NCBI RefSeq assembly: GCF_014647115.1
Contig: NZ_BMOO01000001.1
Coordinates: forward strand, 310,001 to 374,000
Length of the DNA stretch: 64,000 nucleotides
Direction: 5' to 3'
Origin: Halarchaeum rubridurum
Lineage (GTDB): Archaea; Halobacteriota; Halobacteria; Halobacteriales; Halobacteriaceae
Position 1 is the stretch's first letter. The number at the start of each line of letters is the position of its first letter. The position numbers were made by a program, and so were the translations under genes. The notes under the pieces are model-generated. The model saw nothing but the letters and a program-made list of their open reading frames with translations. It was not told the origin of the DNA and made no database searches. Positions 10,131 through 37,985 of the stretch are shown in pieces.

Positions 10131-10462
10131 CGCGGGTGGTCGCGCTCGACGGAGACGGTGACGTCGTCGGGGTCGACGCCGATGCGCGCGAACTGCGTGC
10201 GGACGTGCTCGCGGGCGGCGGCGACGGCCTGGTCCCGGGTGTCGAAGCCGCGGGGCATCGGCGACTCGAAGGCGACGCGGACGTCCTCGCCGTCGACCTG
10301 CTGGACGAGGCCGCCGCTCTCCACCTCGTAGAACTCGTCGCAGACCCAGACGTAGGGGGCGTCCTCGTCGGGCGCGCCCTTGAACGACGGGGCGTCCTCG
10401 CCGCGCTCGTACACCGTGCCGGTGAGTGTGGTGCCCGCCGCGGAGCCGCGCACGAGTAACAT
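10127..10462 (-). CDS. Conserved haloarchaeal protein of unknown function (DUF7113-like)
   Basis: A 111-residue acidic protein that reads as a compact beta-rich domain (MLLVRGSAAGTTLTGTVYER, YVWVCDEFYEVESGG). It has the look of the short haloarchaeal family annotated DUF7113; no function is assigned. Its stop codon overlaps the nurA stop by three bases on the opposite strand, and its start faces the herA promoter. It is therefore wedged antisense between two genes of one repair system. Whether it has a role there cannot be read from sequence. Confidence 0.7.
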   Translation of the reverse strand: MLLVRGSAAGTTLTGTVYERGEDAPSFKGAPDEDAPYVWVCDEFYEVESGGLVQQVDGEDVRVAFESPMPRGFDTRDQAVAAAREHVRTQFARIGVDPDDVTVSVERDHPR

Positions 10463-10525
10463 GCGAGCGGCTAGGAGCCGGACGACGAAAAACCGTGTGG
10501 CGGTCGGGTGCGCGCGACGAAAAGA

Positions 10526-10533
10526 CGTTTAGG
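10526..10533 (+). promoter_or_regulatory. TATA-like box of herA
   Basis: The element cgtttagg lies about 26 bases before the ATG at 10556. It indicates that herA has its own promoter and does not depend on read-through from nurA. Confidence 0.55.
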
Positions 10534-10555
10534 CGCGGCCGGTGTTTCGCGTGAC

Positions 10556-12448
10556 ATGACAGAGGAGGACCTCGGGAGCTTCGCCGACTTCGGGGGGGAC
10601 GGCGACGACGGCGAGGACGCGTCGGCGAAAGCGTCGGACGGCACGGACGTCGACGCCGACGCCGGCGGCGAACGCGGGCGCGAACGTGGGCGCGGGTCGA
10701 GCGACGACGCCACCGACGCGACGGACGAGGCGGGGGACGCCTTCGAGCGCGTCGCCTACGAGGGCGCGAGCGGGGACGGCCTCGGCGTCCTCGCCGTCTC
10801 CGAGGGGCTGCGGATCGGCCAGCGCGAGGACGAGACGCGCCTCCGGGCGTACGTCACGAGCGCGAACCGCTCGAACGTCCGCCTCGGGCGCTACCTCGTC
10901 GCGCCCTACCCGGACGGCGAGTCGCTGTTCTGCAAGATCGTCGGCCTCGAGTACGGCCAGCGCTTCCACGGCGACGACGCCAACGAGATTCACGCGCGGC
11001 GCGCGATGGACGGGAGCGGAATCGACGAGGACGACTACACCTTCATCGCGGACCTCGAACCCGTGAGCGTCCTCTACCGCGACGGCGGGGAGCTGCGCCG
11101 ACGGATGCCGGACCGCGTGCCGAAACCCGAGACGGTCGTCCGGGAGGCCGACGACGACGAGGAGATCAAGACCGCGCTGAAGATTCCCGACGCGGGCGTG
11201 TTCCTCGGCCACCTCGCGGTCGGCGGCGAGAAGGTCCGGACGGGCGCGACGCCGCCGACCATCGACTACCGCGTGACGGACGACTACGCGACGGGCGACC
11301 CGCTCGCGTTCCGCCACACGCTCGTCGCCGGCGGGACGGGGTCGGGGAAGACCCACACCGCGAAGAACGTCCTCCGGCAGTACCTCTCGACGGAGCGCAC
11401 CTACCCCGTCGAGGCGGGGAGCGACCGGGAGGTGCGGGCCGCAGTCGTCCAGTTCGACCCGCAGGACGAGTACGCCCAGATGCACGACGACAACCCCGAG
11501 GCGGGGCCCGAGGACGAGCGCCGCTGGGAGCGCGAGGGCGTCGCCTACGGCGGCCACGACGACACCGTCGCGTTCGTCCCGACCGTCGGGAACGCGACCT
11601 ACACGGCCGCCCACCACGGCGCCGAGCAGATTCCCTTCACCGTCCCGTTCAGCATGGTGCGGAGCCGGCCGTGGCTCGCCGCCTCCGCCGGCCTCAACGA
11701 CAACCAGTACCCCGCCCTCCAGACGCTCCTCTCGCGTTTCTTCGACCAGCACGGGGACGCGGGCACCTACCGGGAGTTCTGCGCGTTCCTCGACGATCCC
11801 GCGCTGAAGGAGGAGCTCGACGAGTCCGGGCGGATACACGAGGCGACCTACGAGGCCGTCTTCCGTCGCGTCCGCGGGATGCCGAACGGCGTCTTCGACC
11901 AGGACGCCCGGCCGATCACCGAGCTCGTCGAGCAGTTCGTCAAACCCGGGCGGCTCTCCGTCGTCCCCACCTACCACGTCAGCGACTCGCGCGCCACCGA
12001 GACGGTCGTTCTCGCCCTCGCCAGCCTCCTCGTCGACGAGAAGCTCTCCAGCGACCCCCGCTTCCCTCGAATCGCGGAGACGCCGCTCATCGTCGGGATG
12101 GACGAGGCGCACAACTTCCTCGCGGACGCCGACACCGTCCAAGCGCGACAGGTCGTCGGGAAGTTCACCGACGCCGCCAAACAGGGCCGCAAGGAGCGCC
12201 TGGGGCTCTTCCTCATCACGCAGGACCCACAGGACGTCGCGGAGAGCGTCTTCAAGCAAGTGAACACGAAGGTCGTCCTCAACCTCGGCGACGAGGACGC
12301 CATCAAGAGCGTCAACATCCCCCCGGCGCTCGCCGAGAAGGTGCCCTACATGGAGACGGGGCAGATGGTCGTCTACTCGCCCGACAACTCCGAACCCGTC
12401 GAACTCCTCGGACTCCCCACCTGCCTGACGCGCCACGGCCGCGGATAG
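10556..12448 (+). CDS. herA: HerA-type bipolar DNA helicase/ATPase
   Basis: A 630-residue HerA/FtsK-superfamily ATPase, the motor partner of NurA in DNA end resection. It has an acidic disordered N-terminus (about 1-75), a HAS-barrel-like region (about 80-200), Walker A AGGTGSGKTHT (near 259-268), and Walker B PLIVGMDEAHNFL (near 511-521). A sensor-like LGLFLITQDPQDV and the C-terminal brace VELLGLPTCLTRHG follow. The start at 10556 is supported by the TATA-like box at 10526-10533. Haloarchaeal proteins of this type are often annotated only as ATP-binding proteins; the adjacent nurA supports the HerA name. Confidence 0.88.
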   Translation: MTEEDLGSFADFGGDGDDGEDASAKASDGTDVDADAGGERGRERGRGSSDDATDATDEAGDAFERVAYEGASGDGLGVLAVSEGLRIGQREDETRLRAYVTSANRSNVRLGRYLVAPYPDGESLFCKIVGLEYGQRFHGDDANEIHARRAMDGSGIDEDDYTFIADLEPVSVLYRDGGELRRRMPDRVPKPETVVREADDDEEIKTALKIPDAGVFLGHLAVGGEKVRTGATPPTIDYRVTDDYATGDPLAFRHTLVAGGTGSGKTHTAKNVLRQYLSTERTYPVEAGSDREVRAAVVQFDPQDEYAQMHDDNPEAGPEDERRWEREGVAYGGHDDTVAFVPTVGNATYTAAHHGAEQIPFTVPFSMVRSRPWLAASAGLNDNQYPALQTLLSRFFDQHGDAGTYREFCAFLDDPALKEELDESGRIHEATYEAVFRRVRGMPNGVFDQDARPITELVEQFVKPGRLSVVPTYHVSDSRATETVVLALASLLVDEKLSSDPRFPRIAETPLIVGMDEAHNFLADADTVQARQVVGKFTDAAKQGRKERLGLFLITQDPQDVAESVFKQVNTKVVLNLGDEDAIKSVNIPPALAEKVPYMETGQMVVYSPDNSEPVELLGLPTCLTRHGRG

Positions 12449-29268: not shown

Positions 29269-29886
29269 ATGCGGACGCTCGTCCCGTTCGACGCGACGGA
29301 CCCGAAGACGCGCCTCGAGGGCCTGTTCTCGCCCGCGGAGCGCCGCGACCTCGCCGCGGTGATGCTCGCGGACGTCATCGAGGCGGTGCGCGCGGCGGGC
29401 GGCGACCCGCTCGTGGTCGCAACCGCGGACGTCGCGTGCGACGCGCCCGTGCAGGTCGACGAGCGGGCGCTGAGCGACGCCGTGAACGCCCGCCTCGAAC
29501 CCGGAACGGCGGTCGTGATGGCGGACCTCGCGCTGGCGACGCCGCGCGTCCTCCGCTCGTTCTTCGCGGCGACCGGCGACGTCGTGCTCGCGCCCGGCCT
29601 CGGCGGCGGGACGAACGCGCTCGTCGTCCGCGACGACGGGTTCGCCGTCGACTACCACGGCGCGTCGTACCGCGACCACCTGCGCAGCGCCGCGGCGGCG
29701 GGCTGTTCGGTGCGGGAGTTCGACGCGACGCGGCTCGCGCTGGACGTCGACGAGCGCGCGGACCTCGCGGACGCCCTGGTGCGTGGCGAGGGACGGACGC
29801 CGGGGTGGCTCCGGGACGCGGGCGTCGCGCTCGCCGACGGGTCGGGGCGGGCGAACGTCGCCCGCCGACGGGACGAAAAGCGGTAA
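29269..29886 (+). CDS. cofC: 2-phospho-L-lactate guanylyltransferase CofC
   Basis: A 205-residue CofC that activates 2-phospholactate with GTP for coenzyme F420 synthesis. It has the nucleotidyltransferase start LVPFDATDPKTRL, the metal-site region GTAVVMADLALATP, and APGLGGGTNALVV, which binds the substrate. The archaeal length is normal. It heads a cluster with a membrane-protein gene and cofG; a T-rich element (ctttttc, about 29238-29244) serves as promoter. Confidence 0.9.
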   Translation: MRTLVPFDATDPKTRLEGLFSPAERRDLAAVMLADVIEAVRAAGGDPLVVATADVACDAPVQVDERALSDAVNARLEPGTAVVMADLALATPRVLRSFFAATGDVVLAPGLGGGTNALVVRDDGFAVDYHGASYRDHLRSAAAAGCSVREFDATRLALDVDERADLADALVRGEGRTPGWLRDAGVALADGSGRANVARRRDEKR

Positions 29887-29911: not shown

Positions 29912-30322
29912 ATGGACGCGCGTCTCCTTCGAACCGTCGTCGCCGCCGTCGCGTTGCTCGCACTCGGGGCCGTCGTCGGGGCCGCGACGAACCTCGGCCT
30001 GACGCTGCTCGGCGCGCCCGTCGCGCTCGGCACGCCGGTCGGCGTCGCCGTCGCGGTGACGGTCATCCTCCCGCTGGCGGACGCCTACACGCTCCTCGGG
30101 CGCGGCGTGGACACGGACACCCTCCGTGAGCGGGGGCGGGCGCGACTCGCCGCGGAGGTCGCCTTCGCGGCCGTCGGGGCGATGGCCGTCTCGGGACTGC
30201 TCGCGGCGGGCGTCTACACGGCCGACACGGCGTGGGCGTTCGCGCTCGTCGTGGCGGTCGGCGTCGCCGTCGGCTACGGGACGTTCGTGTTGCGAAACCG
30301 GGCGTACTACGCGGCGGCGTGA
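29912..30322 (+). CDS. Membrane protein between cofC and cofG
   Basis: A 136-residue protein with about four hydrophobic helices (VVAAVALLALGAVVGAAT, LGTPVGVAVAVTVILPLA, FAAVGAMAVSGLLAAGVY, AFALVVAVGVAVGYGTFVL) and a short Arg-rich middle loop. No catalytic motif is seen. It follows cofC by 25 bases and its stop is just ahead of the cofG promoter. It may be an F420-linked membrane component or simply a passenger. Confidence 0.65.
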   Translation: MDARLLRTVVAAVALLALGAVVGAATNLGLTLLGAPVALGTPVGVAVAVTVILPLADAYTLLGRGVDTDTLRERGRARLAAEVAFAAVGAMAVSGLLAAGVYTADTAWAFALVVAVGVAVGYGTFVLRNRAYYAAA

Positions 30323-30390
30323 CGCCGGACGAGGGGGCACGCGCTGTCGCCGTAGCAACCCTTTTCGGCACGCGGGCGCTACCGGCGCTC

Positions 30391-31479
30391 GTGTTTCCGG
30401 GCATCGAGGCGTACGACGTCGAGGTGACGGTCGCCGAGCGCGACGTGCGGGAGGCGCTCGCGGTCCGTCCGGACGACGTCGAGGCCGCCGAGGAACTCTC
30501 GTTCGCGCGGAACGTCTTCCTCCCGCTGACGACGGCGTGTCGCTACACGTGTACGTACTGCACCTACTACGACCCGCCGGGGCAGGCGACCCTCATGACG
30601 CCCGAGGAGGTCCGCGAGACGTGCCGGCGCGGCGCGGCCGCGGGCTGTACGGAGGCGCTCTTCACGTTCGGCGACGACCCGGACGAGCGCTACACCGAAA
30701 TCCACGACGAGCTCGCGGAACTCGGCCACGACTCCATCCACACGTACCTCCGCGAGGTCTGCGAAATCGCCCTGGCGGAGGGGCTCCTCCCGCACAGCAA
30801 CCCCGGCGACCAGACGTACGAGGAGATGGCGGCGGTCGCGGACGTGAACGCCTCGATGGGCGTGATGTTGGAGACGACGGCGGAGGTGCAGGCGCACGGC
30901 GGGCCGCGCTCGAAGGTGCCGGGCCAGCGGCTGAACACCATCGCCAACGCGGGCAAACACGGGATTCCGTTCACGACCGGCGTCCTCGTCGGGCTCGGCG
31001 AGACGTGGCGCGACCGGGCGGAGAGCCTGCTCGCGATCCGCGAACTCGACCGGCGGTACGGCCACGTCCAGGAGGTCATCGTCCAGCCGGTCACGGACAA
31101 CGAGCGCTGGGACGGCGGGTCGCCCTCGACGGCGACGATGCGCCGCGCGGTGGCGATGGCGCGCGCCGTCCTCCCCGAGAGCGTCTCCGTGCAGGTGCCG
31201 CCGAACCTCATGGACGCCCGCGACGTCGTCGACTGCGGAATCGACGACCTCGGTGGCGTCTCGCCGGTGACGGACGACCACGTCAACCCCGAGTACGCGT
31301 GGCCGGCGCTGCGCGAACTGGAGGACGTCGCCGACTACGCGGGCGTCCCGCTGCGCGAGCGCCTCCCGACGTACGAGCGCTACCTCGACGAGACGTGGCT
31401 CTCGGAGCGCGTGCTCGCGGCCCTCGACGCCTCGGACGAGGCCGGCGAACGCTACCGGGCCGTCCGCGCCGACGCGTAG
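30391..31479 (+). CDS. cofG: FO synthase subunit 1, CofG (radical SAM)
   Basis: A 362-residue radical SAM enzyme that, with CofH, builds the deazaflavin FO, the chromophore of F420. The cluster-binding motif is CRYTCTYC (C-x3-C-x2-C, near residues 50-57), preceded by FARNVFLPLTTA. It then shows FTFGDDPDERY and a C-terminal NLMDARDVVDCGIDDLGG. The GTG at 30391 is preferred to an upstream GTG at 30319 because a TATA-like cctttt (about 30358-30364) lies 27-30 bases before it. This start also gives the MFPG opening that I recall for haloarchaeal CofG. The partner CofH is encoded about 5 kb away on the other strand. Confidence 0.93.
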   Translation: MFPGIEAYDVEVTVAERDVREALAVRPDDVEAAEELSFARNVFLPLTTACRYTCTYCTYYDPPGQATLMTPEEVRETCRRGAAAGCTEALFTFGDDPDERYTEIHDELAELGHDSIHTYLREVCEIALAEGLLPHSNPGDQTYEEMAAVADVNASMGVMLETTAEVQAHGGPRSKVPGQRLNTIANAGKHGIPFTTGVLVGLGETWRDRAESLLAIRELDRRYGHVQEVIVQPVTDNERWDGGSPSTATMRRAVAMARAVLPESVSVQVPPNLMDARDVVDCGIDDLGGVSPVTDDHVNPEYAWPALRELEDVADYAGVPLRERLPTYERYLDETWLSERVLAALDASDEAGERYRAVRADA

Positions 31480-31674: not shown

Positions 31675-33381
31675 GTGAGTCTGAACACGACCGAACAGTG
31701 GAAACAGGAGAAACATCCCCTCGACGTCGTCGATGATCTCCGCGAGTACGCCGAGGAGGAGCTCGGTTTCGAGGAGATCGAGGAGCGGGCGGGCGACGGC
31801 GAGTGGGAGCGCCTGAAGTGGGCGGGCACCTACACCCAAAAGCAGGACGGCTACTTCATGATGCGGACGAAGGTCCCCGGCGGCCACCTCACCCCCGAGC
31901 AGGCCGAGGTCATCGGCGAGGTTGCCGACGAGTACGCCGTCCAGCCCGAAGAGGAGTACGAGGAGGTCAACGACGACTACTGGGGCGACGCCTACCTCGA
32001 CATCACGACGCGACAGGACATCCAGATGCACTGGATTCGCGTCGAGGACATCCCCGAGATATGGGACAAGTACGACGAGGTCGGCCTCACCACGATTCAG
32101 GGGTGCGGTGACTCCGCGCGCAACGTCCTCGGCTGCCCCGCGGCGGGCCTCGACGACCACGAGTGCTTCGACGCCCAGCCCGTCATCGACGCCGTCAGCG
32201 ACTACTTCACGGGCAACCGCGAGTTCGGCAACCTCCCGCGGAAGTTCAAGATGACAATCACGGGCTGCAAGCACGACTGTGCGCAGTCCCAGATCAACGA
32301 CGTCGGTCTCGTCCCCGCGAAGAAGGAACTCGACGGCGAGGGCGCCGGCTACACGTACGGCTTCCACCTCCGCGTCGGCGGCGGCCTCTCCGACGGCCCG
32401 CGGATGGCCTCCCAGCTCGACGTCTTCGTGCGCCCCGAGCACGCCGTCGAGCTCTGCCGGGCGATTGCACAGACGTTCAAGGAACTCGGCGACCGGCACA
32501 ACCGCGGCGTCTGCCGGATGCGCTACCTCGTCCAGCAGATGGGCCCGGAGAACTTCGAGCAGGCAGTCCGCGACCGCTGCGACGTCGAGCTCCCCGAGAG
32601 CGGGATCGACCTCACCGAGGGGTACGTCGGCGACCACGTCGGCGTCCACGACCAGAAGCAGGACGGCCTGAAGTACGTCGGCTTCAACGTCATCTCGGGC
32701 CGCGTCGGCGGCGACGAGTTCGTGCAGGCCGCACGGGCCGCGAAGAAGTACGGCACGGAGGAGTCCACGGTGCGACTCGCAACCGACCAGAACTTCCTCA
32801 TCACGCACGTCCCCGAGGAGAACGTCGAGGACCTCGTGAGCGAGGAGTTCGCGGCGGACTACCAGCCCGACCCCGGCCCGTTCTCCCGCGGCGCGGTCGC
32901 CTGTACGGGCACCGAGTACTGCAAGTACGCCATCATCGAGACGAAGGCGCGCACGAAGCAGTGGGCGCGCCAGCTCGACGAGCAGATCGACACGCCCGAC
33001 GACCTCGACGTCGTCCGGATGCACATGTCCGGCTGCTCGGCGTCGTGCGCGCAGCCCCAGATCGCGGACGTCGGCTTCCGCGGCGAGACGGTGAAAGTCG
33101 AGACCGCGGACAACTCGGAGGACGACATCGTCGAGGGGATGGACTTCGGTCTCGGGGGAAGCCTCGGTGCCGACAACGCCTTCCTCGACTGGGTGGAGAC
33201 CGCCGTCCCCGCCGGGAGCGTCACCGACGCCTTGGAGGAGCTGTTCGCCGCCTACACCGAGGAGCGCACGGAAGGCGAGCGCTTCTACGAGTGGACGCGC
33301 CGCGTCGACAACGACCGGCTGCGAAGCGTGATGCAACAGGCCGACGCTCCGGTCTCCTCGGGGGTGGCCCACGGTGACTAA
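31675..33381 (+). CDS. Siroheme [4Fe-4S] sulfite/nitrite reductase
   Basis: A 568-residue NirA/Sir-type reductase that carries out the six-electron reduction of sulfite or nitrite. Two ferredoxin-like half-domains are visible: the first precedes the siroheme region DITTRQDIQMHWIRVEDIP, the second lies near DGLKYVGFNVISGRVGGDE. The siroheme-[4Fe-4S] ligands are ACTGTEYC and MSGCSASCAQPQIAD (C-x5-C and C-x3-C). The GTG at 31675 is taken as start; an upstream extension is basic. It overlaps the following F420-dehydrogenase-like gene by eight bases, so the two are one operon. This suggests reduced F420 and not, or not only, ferredoxin as donor. Sulfite versus nitrite cannot be decided from sequence. 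Confidence 0.9.
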   Translation: MSLNTTEQWKQEKHPLDVVDDLREYAEEELGFEEIEERAGDGEWERLKWAGTYTQKQDGYFMMRTKVPGGHLTPEQAEVIGEVADEYAVQPEEEYEEVNDDYWGDAYLDITTRQDIQMHWIRVEDIPEIWDKYDEVGLTTIQGCGDSARNVLGCPAAGLDDHECFDAQPVIDAVSDYFTGNREFGNLPRKFKMTITGCKHDCAQSQINDVGLVPAKKELDGEGAGYTYGFHLRVGGGLSDGPRMASQLDVFVRPEHAVELCRAIAQTFKELGDRHNRGVCRMRYLVQQMGPENFEQAVRDRCDVELPESGIDLTEGYVGDHVGVHDQKQDGLKYVGFNVISGRVGGDEFVQAARAAKKYGTEESTVRLATDQNFLITHVPEENVEDLVSEEFAADYQPDPGPFSRGAVACTGTEYCKYAIIETKARTKQWARQLDEQIDTPDDLDVVRMHMSGCSASCAQPQIADVGFRGETVKVETADNSEDDIVEGMDFGLGGSLGADNAFLDWVETAVPAGSVTDALEELFAAYTEERTEGERFYEWTRRVDNDRLRSVMQQADAPVSSGVAHGD

Positions 33382-34921
33382 GCGTACGCCGGGCGTCCCG
33401 AACGCCGGGTCGTCCGACTCGAACGAGAGCGAGAGCGGCGCCTGCGGGACGGACTGCGGCTGTTCGAGCGGCGCGGAGTCGTCCGCGTCGAACGCGTCGG
33501 CGGACGTCCGCGCGGACGGTGGTGAGGGACCAGCGGGGTCGCGAGGAACGTCGGAGCTGCGCTCCGACGGTGGTGCGGTGAACGTCGACGAGAACGGCCA
33601 GCTCAACGACTTGGAGTTCACCGAGCCCTCGACGGGCAAGAGTCAGGACGTCGACTCGCCGGGCGCGGAGCCCGACAAGCGCGTCGGCGTCCCGGAGGGC
33701 GTCGACCTCGACACCCCCGAGTACTCGATTCGCTCGGAGATGAACGACATCGACACGCCCGACGACAAGACGTGGTTCATGGAGCTCGACGAGGCGGTCA
33801 TCGACGCCGACCGCTGTATCCAGTGCGGGACCTGCGTCGCCGCCTGCCCCTCGGACTCCATCGGCGTCGGCGAGGACGGTCATCCCGAACTCGTCAAGAT
33901 GTGTACGGGCTGTTCGATGTGTTGGGACTTCTGCCCGCGCGGGGGGATGCGCTACGAGCGCCAGTGGAAGATAACCGGCGGCGACGACAACGTCTCCGGC
34001 GCCGGCGACCCCATCACGGAGTTCACGGCACAGGTCCGCGACGACTGGCACGGCGACGCCCAGGACGGCGGCGTCGTCACCGCCGTCCTCTCCACGCTCC
34101 TCGAAGAGGGTGAGATCGACGGCGCGCTCGTCGCCACCGAATCCGAGGAGGACCCGTGGAAGGCCGAGTCCTTCCTCGCCACGAGCCACGAGGACCTCGT
34201 CGAGAACGCCGGGTCGTTCTACAACCAGACGATGGCGCTCGGCAACCTCGACCCCGAGCAGTGGGAGCACAAGCTCCCCGAGAAGGACCTCGCGGACGTC
34301 AGCCTCGCGCTCGTCGGCACGCCCTGCGAGATCGAGGGCATCCGCGCCCTCCAGGACTTCGACTGGTCGAAGGGCGCACAGACGGAGCTCGTCGAGGCCG
34401 TCGACTACCGCATCTCGCTGATGTGCACGAAGAACTTCAACTACGAGCGCCTCATCGGCGAGCAGCTCGCCGAGAAGCGCGACATCTACCCCGAGGACAT
34501 CGGGAAGATGGACGTCATCGAGGGCGAGATGCGCGTCTACGGCAACGACGGCGAGCAGATCATCGCCGAGGACGTCAACGAGTTCCACGACGCCACCCTC
34601 AAGGGGTGTGACGAGTGTGCGGACTTCACCGGCATGACCTCCGACATCACCGTCGGCTCCGTCGGCTCCGCGGACGGCCACTCCTCCGTCATCGTCCGCA
34701 CCGAGCAGGGGATGAAGGCGTGGGAGGCCACCGAGTCCGTCCTCGAACACCGCGACCTCGACTCGCGCAAGGCGGTCGGCAAACTCCAGGGCTGGGACAA
34801 GAAGAAGGCCTTCGAGGCGCTCGAACGCCCCTTCGACCCGGACGCCCCGCGCTTCATCGACTACACCGACCACGCCGAGTACTACGGCACGCAGGTCGCG
34901 CCCCACGACAAGGGCCACTAG
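33374..34921 (+). CDS. F420 hydrogenase/dehydrogenase beta-subunit (FrhB) family iron-sulfur protein
   Basis: A 515-residue FrhB-family flavoprotein of the type that exchanges electrons between F420H2 and iron-sulfur partners. Residues 1-130 form a disordered extension with a small Cys-rich patch (CGTDCGCSS). A two-cluster ferredoxin domain follows, CIQCGTCVAACP and CTGCSMCWDFCP. The FrhB domain then shows DAQDGGVVTAVLSTLLEEG, LVGTPCEIEGIRALQ, SLMCTKNFNYERL and KGCDECADFTGMTSDI. The GTG start lies within the end of the siroheme reductase gene. In methanogens an FrhB-like domain is fused to a siroheme reductase in Fsr; here the two parts are separate polypeptides. Confidence 0.88.
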   Translation: MTKRTPGVPNAGSSDSNESESGACGTDCGCSSGAESSASNASADVRADGGEGPAGSRGTSELRSDGGAVNVDENGQLNDLEFTEPSTGKSQDVDSPGAEPDKRVGVPEGVDLDTPEYSIRSEMNDIDTPDDKTWFMELDEAVIDADRCIQCGTCVAACPSDSIGVGEDGHPELVKMCTGCSMCWDFCPRGGMRYERQWKITGGDDNVSGAGDPITEFTAQVRDDWHGDAQDGGVVTAVLSTLLEEGEIDGALVATESEEDPWKAESFLATSHEDLVENAGSFYNQTMALGNLDPEQWEHKLPEKDLADVSLALVGTPCEIEGIRALQDFDWSKGAQTELVEAVDYRISLMCTKNFNYERLIGEQLAEKRDIYPEDIGKMDVIEGEMRVYGNDGEQIIAEDVNEFHDATLKGCDECADFTGMTSDITVGSVGSADGHSSVIVRTEQGMKAWEATESVLEHRDLDSRKAVGKLQGWDKKKAFEALERPFDPDAPRFIDYTDHAEYYGTQVAPHDKGH

Positions 34922-36554: not shown

Positions 36555-37907
36555 CTAGTCGAGGAGCGGCGTGCCGTCGGCCTCGGGGCCGAGTCGGGGG
36601 CCGAAGACGTCCGCGTCGGTGTCGATCCGACGGCGCTCCGTGTAGTCGGTGGTGCGCTCGACCGGCGGGCGACCGATGGCCGTGAGCATCTCGACGTAGT
36701 CGCGGAAGGAGCGGAACTCGCCGTACTGGCCGCCCGCGCGCTTCGTTATCTCCTCCGAGAGGATGGTGCCCATGAAGTCGTCCGCGCCGCAGTTGAGGAG
36801 TTTGAGGCCGAACTCGTCGCCGTACTTCACCCACGAGGACTGGATGTGCTCGACGTTGTCGAGGAAGAGGCGCGCGACGGCGATGAGGAGTTCGTCCTCG
36901 GCCTTCGAGGCCCCCGACTCGACGACGCCGTGTTCGTGGAGCGGGGTGTCCTGGTGGATGAAGGAGAGCGGGACGAACTCCGTGATGTTCCCGGTCCTGT
37001 CCTGGAGGTCGCGGATGACCTTCAGGTGCTCGACGCGGTGGGCCTCGTTCTCGACGTGGCCGTACATCATCGTGGACGTCATCGGCAACCCCACCTCGGC
37101 GGCGGCCGCCATCGAGTCAACCCACTCCTGGGTGGTTATCTTCCCCGGGCAGATGACGTCGCGCACCTCGTCGACGAGGATTTCGGCGGCGGTCCCGGGC
37201 ACCGTCTTCAGGCCGACGTCCGCGAGTTCGCGGTAGACGTCCGCGTACCCCCAGTCCGCGCCGCGCTGGGCGTGGTCGACCTCCTCGGGCGTCATCGAGT
37301 GGACGTGCGCGCCCGTCTCCGCCATCGCCGCGATCTGCTCGCGGTACGTCGTCGGGTCGGTCTCGTAGGCCTCCGGGGGTTTGTAGTTGAGTTCGGGGTC
37401 GTCGGGGTCGAGGAGTTCGCGGTGCTCCTCGTTCAGACCGAACGCAGGATGCAGCCCGGAGACGGACGTGACCTCGTAGACGCCGCGCTCGACGGCGTCC
37501 GCGACGACGTCACGGGACTCGGCGGGCGTCTTCGTGAAGCCGCCGTGGTCCTGCTGGTACTCCGTCTCGAACTGGTGGGCGGTGTCCTTGAAGTTGCAGA
37601 AGAGACAGCCGGTGTTGCACGCCGTCGTGACGTTGTTGTTGACGTTGGCGATGAACGTCACCTCCTCGCCGACGACCTCCGCGCGGCGGCGGTCCGCGGC
37701 CTCCAGGACGAGCTCCTTCCGGCGCGGGTCGAGCCCCTCGACGTCGGTGCCGGTCGTGATGAGCTCGATGCCGTCGTCGACGGTGAGGCGAACGCCGTCG
37801 CGGGCCTTCGAGAGCGCGTTCTCGAAGGACTGGTCGGTCTCGGGGACGACGTCGAAGCCGAACTCGTCGGCGTCGAGGTCCGCCGCCCGGTCGTCAATCC
37901 AAGACAT
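36555..37907 (-). CDS. cofH: FO synthase subunit 2, CofH (radical SAM)
   Basis: A 450-residue radical SAM enzyme, the partner of CofG in FO (F420 chromophore) synthesis; it joins the tyrosine-derived and ribityl-uracil moieties. The cluster motif is CNTGCLFCNF (C-x3-C-x2-C) after FIANVNNNVTTA, followed by ITSVSGLHPAFG-like and KTVPGTAAEILVDEVRD segments. The ATG at 37907 follows a TATA-like cttttgc (about 37931-37937) by roughly 25 bases. It is convergent with the region carrying cofC, cofG and the F420-linked reductase, about 1.6 kb from the FrhB-like gene. Confidence 0.93.
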   Translation of the reverse strand: MSWIDDRAADLDADEFGFDVVPETDQSFENALSKARDGVRLTVDDGIELITTGTDVEGLDPRRKELVLEAADRRRAEVVGEEVTFIANVNNNVTTACNTGCLFCNFKDTAHQFETEYQQDHGGFTKTPAESRDVVADAVERGVYEVTSVSGLHPAFGLNEEHRELLDPDDPELNYKPPEAYETDPTTYREQIAAMAETGAHVHSMTPEEVDHAQRGADWGYADVYRELADVGLKTVPGTAAEILVDEVRDVICPGKITTQEWVDSMAAAAEVGLPMTSTMMYGHVENEAHRVEHLKVIRDLQDRTGNITEFVPLSFIHQDTPLHEHGVVESGASKAEDELLIAVARLFLDNVEHIQSSWVKYGDEFGLKLLNCGADDFMGTILSEEITKRAGGQYGEFRSFRDYVEMLTAIGRPPVERTTDYTERRRIDTDADVFGPRLGPEADGTPLLD

Positions 37908-37985
37908 ACAACTCGGTTTCGCGTCCACGTGCAAAAGCGGGCGGGTCCCGTCAGGTGAGCGGGGGAATCGGTGACGGACGACGCT

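Follow-up and report, generated by a model that had tools for sequence, protein, structure and literature searches.

A haloarchaeal relative of the methanogen F420-dependent sulfite reductase (Fsr) was described in 2012 by Susanti and Mukhopadhyay as a putative two-subunit arrangement, aFsr-alpha/aFsr-beta, with reduced F420 (F420H2) as the proposed donor; in the available text, aFsr-alpha is of the aSir type, aFsr-beta joins FrhB to two N-terminal [4Fe-4S] clusters and is assigned to an FGltS(I)-alpha/aFsr-beta/FpoF clade, and the members include Halogeometricum, Haloterrigena, Halalkalicoccus and Halorhabdus (PMC3448663). In 2022, aFsr was still termed putative (PMC9295563). Throughout the literature searched, the name occurs only in these two papers, and no aFsr assay was found. 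The present analysis concerns two overlapping genes, alpha and beta, within a 64,000-nucleotide stretch (the window) of Halarchaeum rubridurum (assembly GCF_014647115.1, contig NZ_BMOO01000001.1, positions 310,001–374,000, forward strand). The pair, of a kind already predicted and named in 2012, is another aFsr member, and it probably codes for an F420H2-dependent sulfite reductase of two subunits and of the assimilatory type, as predicted then. As of 2021, reports of F420-dependent reactions in haloarchaea were limited to a single one, and the role of the cofactor there was called enigmatic (PMC8305020); the pair is a concrete, testable candidate use of F420 in these organisms. What is added to the 2012 proposal is a conservation test, a substrate call and a rhodanese-fused sister pair.

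Both halves of the siroheme reductase fold are found in alpha (Pfam NIR_SIR, E = 4.9e-53; NIR_SIR_ferr, E = 1.8e-32), the architecture being that of a complete four-domain assimilatory siroheme reductase. Its relatives in the PDB are plant nitrite reductase (NiR; up to 1.4e-82), Mycobacterium tuberculosis NirA and the Escherichia coli hemoprotein SiRHP, whereas the match to Fsr reaches only 5e-10; matches to Fsr and to the DsrA/DsrB models are weak, those to the assimilatory family strong, and no Dsr-type siroheme half was found. Beta has the domain order Fer4–Fer4–FrhB_N–FrhB_C (FrhB_FdhB_N, 8e-21; FrhB_FdhB_C, 3.7e-33), and its best solved relatives are FrhB and the Fsr chains 7np8, 7npa and 9tn7, the last identified as Methanocaldococcus infernus Fsr, with E values of about 1e-42 to 1e-37 for Fsr chains; 8rja and 8riu, an FrhB-family chain with N-terminal ferredoxin clusters, also score high. 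The nearest named relatives of beta are from Halarchaeum (88–92% identical), pointing to a haloarchaeal host. A first-pass annotation of this DNA had seen in the pair the same parts as Fsr split over two genes, which holds for beta, homologous to the N-terminal part of Fsr, but not for alpha, which is of the assimilatory sulfite reductase (SiR)/NiR type rather than Dsr; its proposal of an origin separate from Fsr agrees with the different ancestry of the catalytic part. Neither protein can be named by rule, because no curated equivalog cut-off is reached: alpha passes no curated NirA model (PRK09566, 'ferredoxin--nitrite reductase', is best with 400 bits against a cut-off of 594; PRK09567 gives 314 against 523), and beta falls below the FpoF cut-off (119 vs 475). 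An AlphaFold2 model of alpha, built from 10 closely related rows, was poor (mean predicted local distance difference test score 51) and was not used.

The active-site residues favor sulfite. The sulfite-binding residues of E. coli SiRHP are R83, R153, K215 and K217, identities that the K-12 sequence confirms, and alpha matches all four in the alignment, Lys192 being the equivalent of K217. Tobacco NiR aligns an Asn at the K217 position (in RKWNP), N226 of the literature, and this NiR-specific residue is not present in alpha. Lys was found there in 21 of 21 aligned orthologs of alpha (alpha1), in all 76 motif matches among named alpha1 loci, in rhodanese-fused paralogs (17/17) and in a stand-alone SiR-like family (20/20), against Asn in 30 of 30 nas-type NirA proteins (tblastn alignment). 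The residue rule rests on knowledge of SiRHP and on alignment. Two siroheme reductases were found in the H. rubridurum genome, which lacks the stand-alone SiR-type family, and alpha is the only Lys-type one; the other, a NirA with Asn at the NiR position (L005:8658-10430), is flanked by genes for a molybdopterin nitrate reductase and an MFS transporter in a nas-type cluster (G000:C2:82000-101500; L005:6315-12015). Judged by these residues, sulfite is the likelier substrate of alpha, and the automatic 'nitrite reductase' names carried by its family appear to be wrong. Of the earlier wording 'sulfite or nitrite', the first half is thus favored and the second disfavored by the same residues.

By analogy with Fsr and FrhB relatives, from which the electron order, complex formation and F420 specificity are taken, beta would oxidize F420H2 at the flavin adenine dinucleotide of its FrhB core; electrons would then pass to the FrhB-core cluster (C318, C351, C412, C415), on to the two ferredoxin clusters, across to the siroheme-coupled [4Fe-4S] cluster of alpha and finally to the siroheme, where sulfite would be reduced to sulfide with six electrons. 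We infer that the subunits form a complex, with F420H2 as donor and sulfite as physiological substrate. The 2012 paper reasoned, in its available text, that Fsr requires an additional cluster between its halves (PMC3448663). As alpha lacks the Dsr-type extra domain, the ferredoxin clusters of beta would need to dock directly, much as ferredoxin does in NiR.

The survey of the pairing covered 292 genomes of the haloarchaeal class, each at least 90% complete, with beta orthologs defined by at least 64% identity over near-full length. Such orthologs occur in 83 genomes, and alpha is adjacent in 83 of 83, always as two genes and never as one chain; the adjacency script scored 82, and G043, where the overlap exceeds the script's window, was added. 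Among named relatives, the pair is also carried by congeners of all four members listed in 2012. Among named loci, alpha lies directly upstream of beta in 79 of 80, the exception (L166) being a second beta copy whose genome carries a complete pair as well (L146). Since adjacency extends to all carriers, the pairing in H. rubridurum is not a matter of chance. An FrhB-like gene commonly occurring without the reductase, which the first-pass annotation had named as telling against its reading, was not observed; FrhB-type paralogs without a siroheme gene turned up in two genomes. These paralogs (L100:8559-9842 and L101:8801-10084) are 64–65% identical to beta, and the one in L101 has as neighbors a flavoprotein of the FAD_binding_2 type (10459-11886) and a gene resembling SDR; another enzyme may thus have recruited the electron-input subunit at that locus.

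A second paralogous pair (pair 2), alpha2/beta2, is present in 25 of the 292 genomes, seven of them without the alpha/beta pair (pair 1), and its genes are adjacent in 25 of 25. Alpha2, of about 780–880 residues, begins with a tandem rhodanese having an intact active-site loop (CNTARR in the sequences inspected) and continues as a siroheme reductase; beta2 is an FrhB subunit 40–50% identical to beta. Pair 2 is missing from the H. rubridurum genome, as only one FrhB-type gene is found there. A rhodanese–NirA fusion was reported in 2024 (FusFiss; 19 of 529 halobacterial NirA), and an FrhB partner goes unmentioned in the available text of that paper (PMC11237513); no report of such a partner was found. 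The rhodanese-fused pair speaks for sulfur chemistry throughout the group, and its composition suggests that pair 2 is a candidate F420H2-linked thiosulfate or sulfane-sulfur reductase. A wider proposal, to which we give less than even weight, is that F420H2-driven sulfur reductases form a family in haloarchaea, made up of the aFsr pair and pair 2, the latter taking thiosulfate or some other sulfane-sulfur donor, freeing sulfite from it and reducing this sulfite in the same complex, that is, acting as an F420H2-dependent thiosulfate reductase. A broken beta2 remnant, in two fragments and without its alpha2, was also observed (L103:8484-9262, G192:C1).

The stand-alone SiR-like protein (L195–L214), with Lys at the SiRHP K217 position, occurs in about 203 of the 292 genomes, and neither nasA-type nor pair-1-type neighbors were found beside it. 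The idea that its 20 aligned members, which are non-nas relatives, are NirA was rejected, since all have Lys and a search of their surroundings found no nas gene. The stand-alone protein is probably a sulfite reductase in its own right that is often grouped with NirA. Both it and pair 1 are present in 40 genomes, pair 1 only in 43, the stand-alone protein only in 163 and neither in 46, so that each tends to be missing where the other occurs (odds ratio 0.26, p 1e-6, calculated with no phylogenetic correction), a pattern in keeping with two sulfite reductases that stand in for one another and draw on different electron sources.

Two further cysteine patterns deserve mention. In a comparison that took in haloarchaeal alpha1, alpha2, stand-alone SiR-like proteins and NirA (loci L102, L209 and L211 cited), just three aligned proteins, from two different families, lack the cysteines equivalent to C154, C198 and C202 of alpha, and each lacks all three; E. 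coli SiRHP has only the first. Being kept or lost jointly is the pattern expected from a shared metal or cluster site, and these residues possibly form a second metal or Fe-S site missing from E. coli SiRHP. Of 79 named relatives, 68 keep a C-x(1-5)-C-x-C motif in the N-terminal tail of beta, which is otherwise acidic and variable; the motif is not apparent in the beta2 tails aligned.

Several points weigh against an F420H2-dependent sulfite reductase. Residue-based substrate calls are imperfect, and siroheme sulfite reductases usually reduce nitrite too; FrhB folds can use other donors, as in plant HCAR, which takes ferredoxin; linkage to F420 biosynthesis (cof) genes is missing in most lineages; and 79 of the 83 pair-1 carriers have no strong CysH-family match. 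Furthermore, methanogen Fsr also reduces nitrite, and FsrII of ANME-2c (anaerobic methanotrophic archaea), supplied with F420H2, reduces nitrite and not sulfite (PMC9295563).

The alternative that fares best concerns role and is compatible with the proposed mechanism: we lean towards sulfite being supplied by the environment or by the breakdown of organosulfur compounds or thiosulfate, with the pair serving mainly in detoxification rather than in assimilatory sulfate reduction. A strong CysH-family match (E < 1e-25) occurs in four of the 292 genomes, thus in just 4 of the 83 carriers, which implies that in most carriers sulfite does not derive from standard sulfate assimilation. In H. rubridurum, only weak PF01507 matches, no strong CysH and no PF01747 ATP sulfurylase were found, and no sulfur-assimilation genes were recognized among the conserved neighbors of the pair, mainly an SRP (signal recognition particle)/translation block or cof genes, in clusters that were not family-searched. 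However, pair 1 is found in all four genomes with strong CysH (hypergeometric p 0.006), as would be expected if it served assimilation in sulfate users. In most carriers, the sulfite source is probably the environment or other sulfur compounds, and detoxification or sulfite scavenging is a possible role.

That alpha and beta instead constitute an F420H2-dependent nitrite reductase, ammonifying or detoxifying, is unlikely. The best full-length PDB and NCBIfam relatives of alpha are indeed nitrite reductases, albeit below curated cut-offs, and FsrII sets a precedent for F420-dependent nitrite reduction, but the SiR-type Lys is present in every alpha checked, a nas-linked NirA is already encoded in the genome, and the rhodanese-fused paralog indicates sulfur. 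Slightly less probable still is a ferredoxin-fed sulfite reductase in which beta passes on electrons received from ferredoxin or a different non-F420 donor: non-F420 donors are generally known for FrhB-family proteins, beta has ferredoxin clusters of its own and the class commonly has stand-alone SiR-type relatives with no FrhB gene next to them, but the closest solved relatives of beta are F420 enzymes, its FrhB core is complete with its cluster cysteines, and cof linkage recurs in several genera.

This linkage involves 9 of 80 loci, from Halarchaeum, Halospeciosus, Halobonum, Halegenticoccus, Halogranum, Salinigranum and one uncultured lineage, whereas an SRP/translation gene block (recognized by eye from one SRP54 sequence) precedes the pair in about 40 loci. 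The co-occurrence with cof genes that had been proposed for comparison across haloarchaea therefore holds for several lineages without being a general rule, related genomes not being independent. The argument that cof neighbors prove function was rejected, with 71 of the 80 loci lacking them.

At the locus itself (Table 1), the eight-base overlap of a siroheme reductase gene with an FrhB-family gene bearing two ferredoxin clusters was confirmed by sequence and domains, as were, by family models above curated cut-offs, the flanking genes noted in the first pass, cofC and cofG upstream and cofH downstream. The ends of cofC and cofG are those of the open reading frame list; the cofG model match starts at residue 81, and its true start is probably further downstream than listed. 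An overlapping beta start (8 or 11 bases) is possible in 75 of 79 named loci, the exact lengths being biased because the start closest to the alpha stop was picked for each locus.

Table 1. Features of the alpha/beta locus (window positions) and of the sister pair (positions within the named loci)
Feature	Position	Strand	Details
alpha (aFsr-alpha type), predicted assimilatory-type siroheme [4Fe-4S] sulfite reductase	31675..33381	+	568 aa; GTG start at 31675, TAA at 33379-33381
beta (aFsr-beta type), FrhB-family putative F420H2 dehydrogenase subunit, two ferredoxin clusters	33374..34921	+	515 aa; GTG start
Overlap of alpha stop and beta start, 8 bases, GTGACTAA	33374..33381	+	Read from sequence
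Extra cysteines C154, C198, C202, first (non-catalytic) half of alpha	32134..32280	+	All-or-none across haloarchaeal relatives
Lys192 codon, SiR-type residue, equivalent to E. coli SiRHP K217	32248..32250	+	Alignments
Siroheme-coupled [4Fe-4S] ligands of alpha, C-x5-C...C-x3-C: C410, C416, C454, C458	32902..33048	+	Aligned with E. coli CysI C434, C440, C479, C483
C-x3-C-x-C motif, low-complexity N-terminal tail of beta: C24, C28, C30	33443..33463	+	Similar motif in relatives
Two C-x2-C-x2-C-x3-CP ferredoxin motifs of beta, C148-C158 and C177-C187	33815..33934	+	Pfam Fer4; alignment-invariant
FrhB core of beta with four cluster cysteines C318, C351, C412, C415	34025..34756	+	Pfam; alignment-invariant
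cofC, 2-phospho-L-lactate guanylyltransferase (F420 biosynthesis)	29269..29886	+	TIGR03552, 149 bits, cut-off 105
cofG, FO synthase subunit	30232..31479	+	NF004884, 468 bits, cut-off 209
cofH, FO synthase subunit	36555..37934	-	NF005609, 524 bits, cut-off 426
alpha2	L088:9972-12467; L092:9312-11693		Tandem rhodanese + siroheme reductase
beta2	L088:8715-9971		FrhB subunit

Compared with known systems, the rhodanese–NirA fusions (PMC11237513) share a paralogous siroheme subunit with this locus, and every fusion found has an adjacent FrhB subunit; they differ in their N-terminal tandem rhodanese and in a beta2 only about 40–50% identical to beta, and none lies in the window. NirA, whether plant NiR or the nas-linked haloarchaeal enzymes, has the same four-domain siroheme fold and includes the closest full-length structural relatives of alpha, but alpha has Lys for Asn at the substrate residue and an FrhB partner instead of a nas cluster. 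With aFsr, the pair shares a haloarchaeal aSir-type siroheme subunit and a free-standing homolog of the N-terminal part of Fsr, and no difference was found; the available text of the 2012 paper gives no assay, class-wide survey or residue-based substrate argument (PMC3448663). Methanogen Fsr (7np8, 7npa, 9tn7) likewise combines an F420-type input module bearing two ferredoxin clusters with siroheme catalysis, but it is one chain with a Dsr-type siroheme half and extra clusters, whereas here there are two chains and a siroheme part of the assimilatory type; the overall reaction is probably the same.

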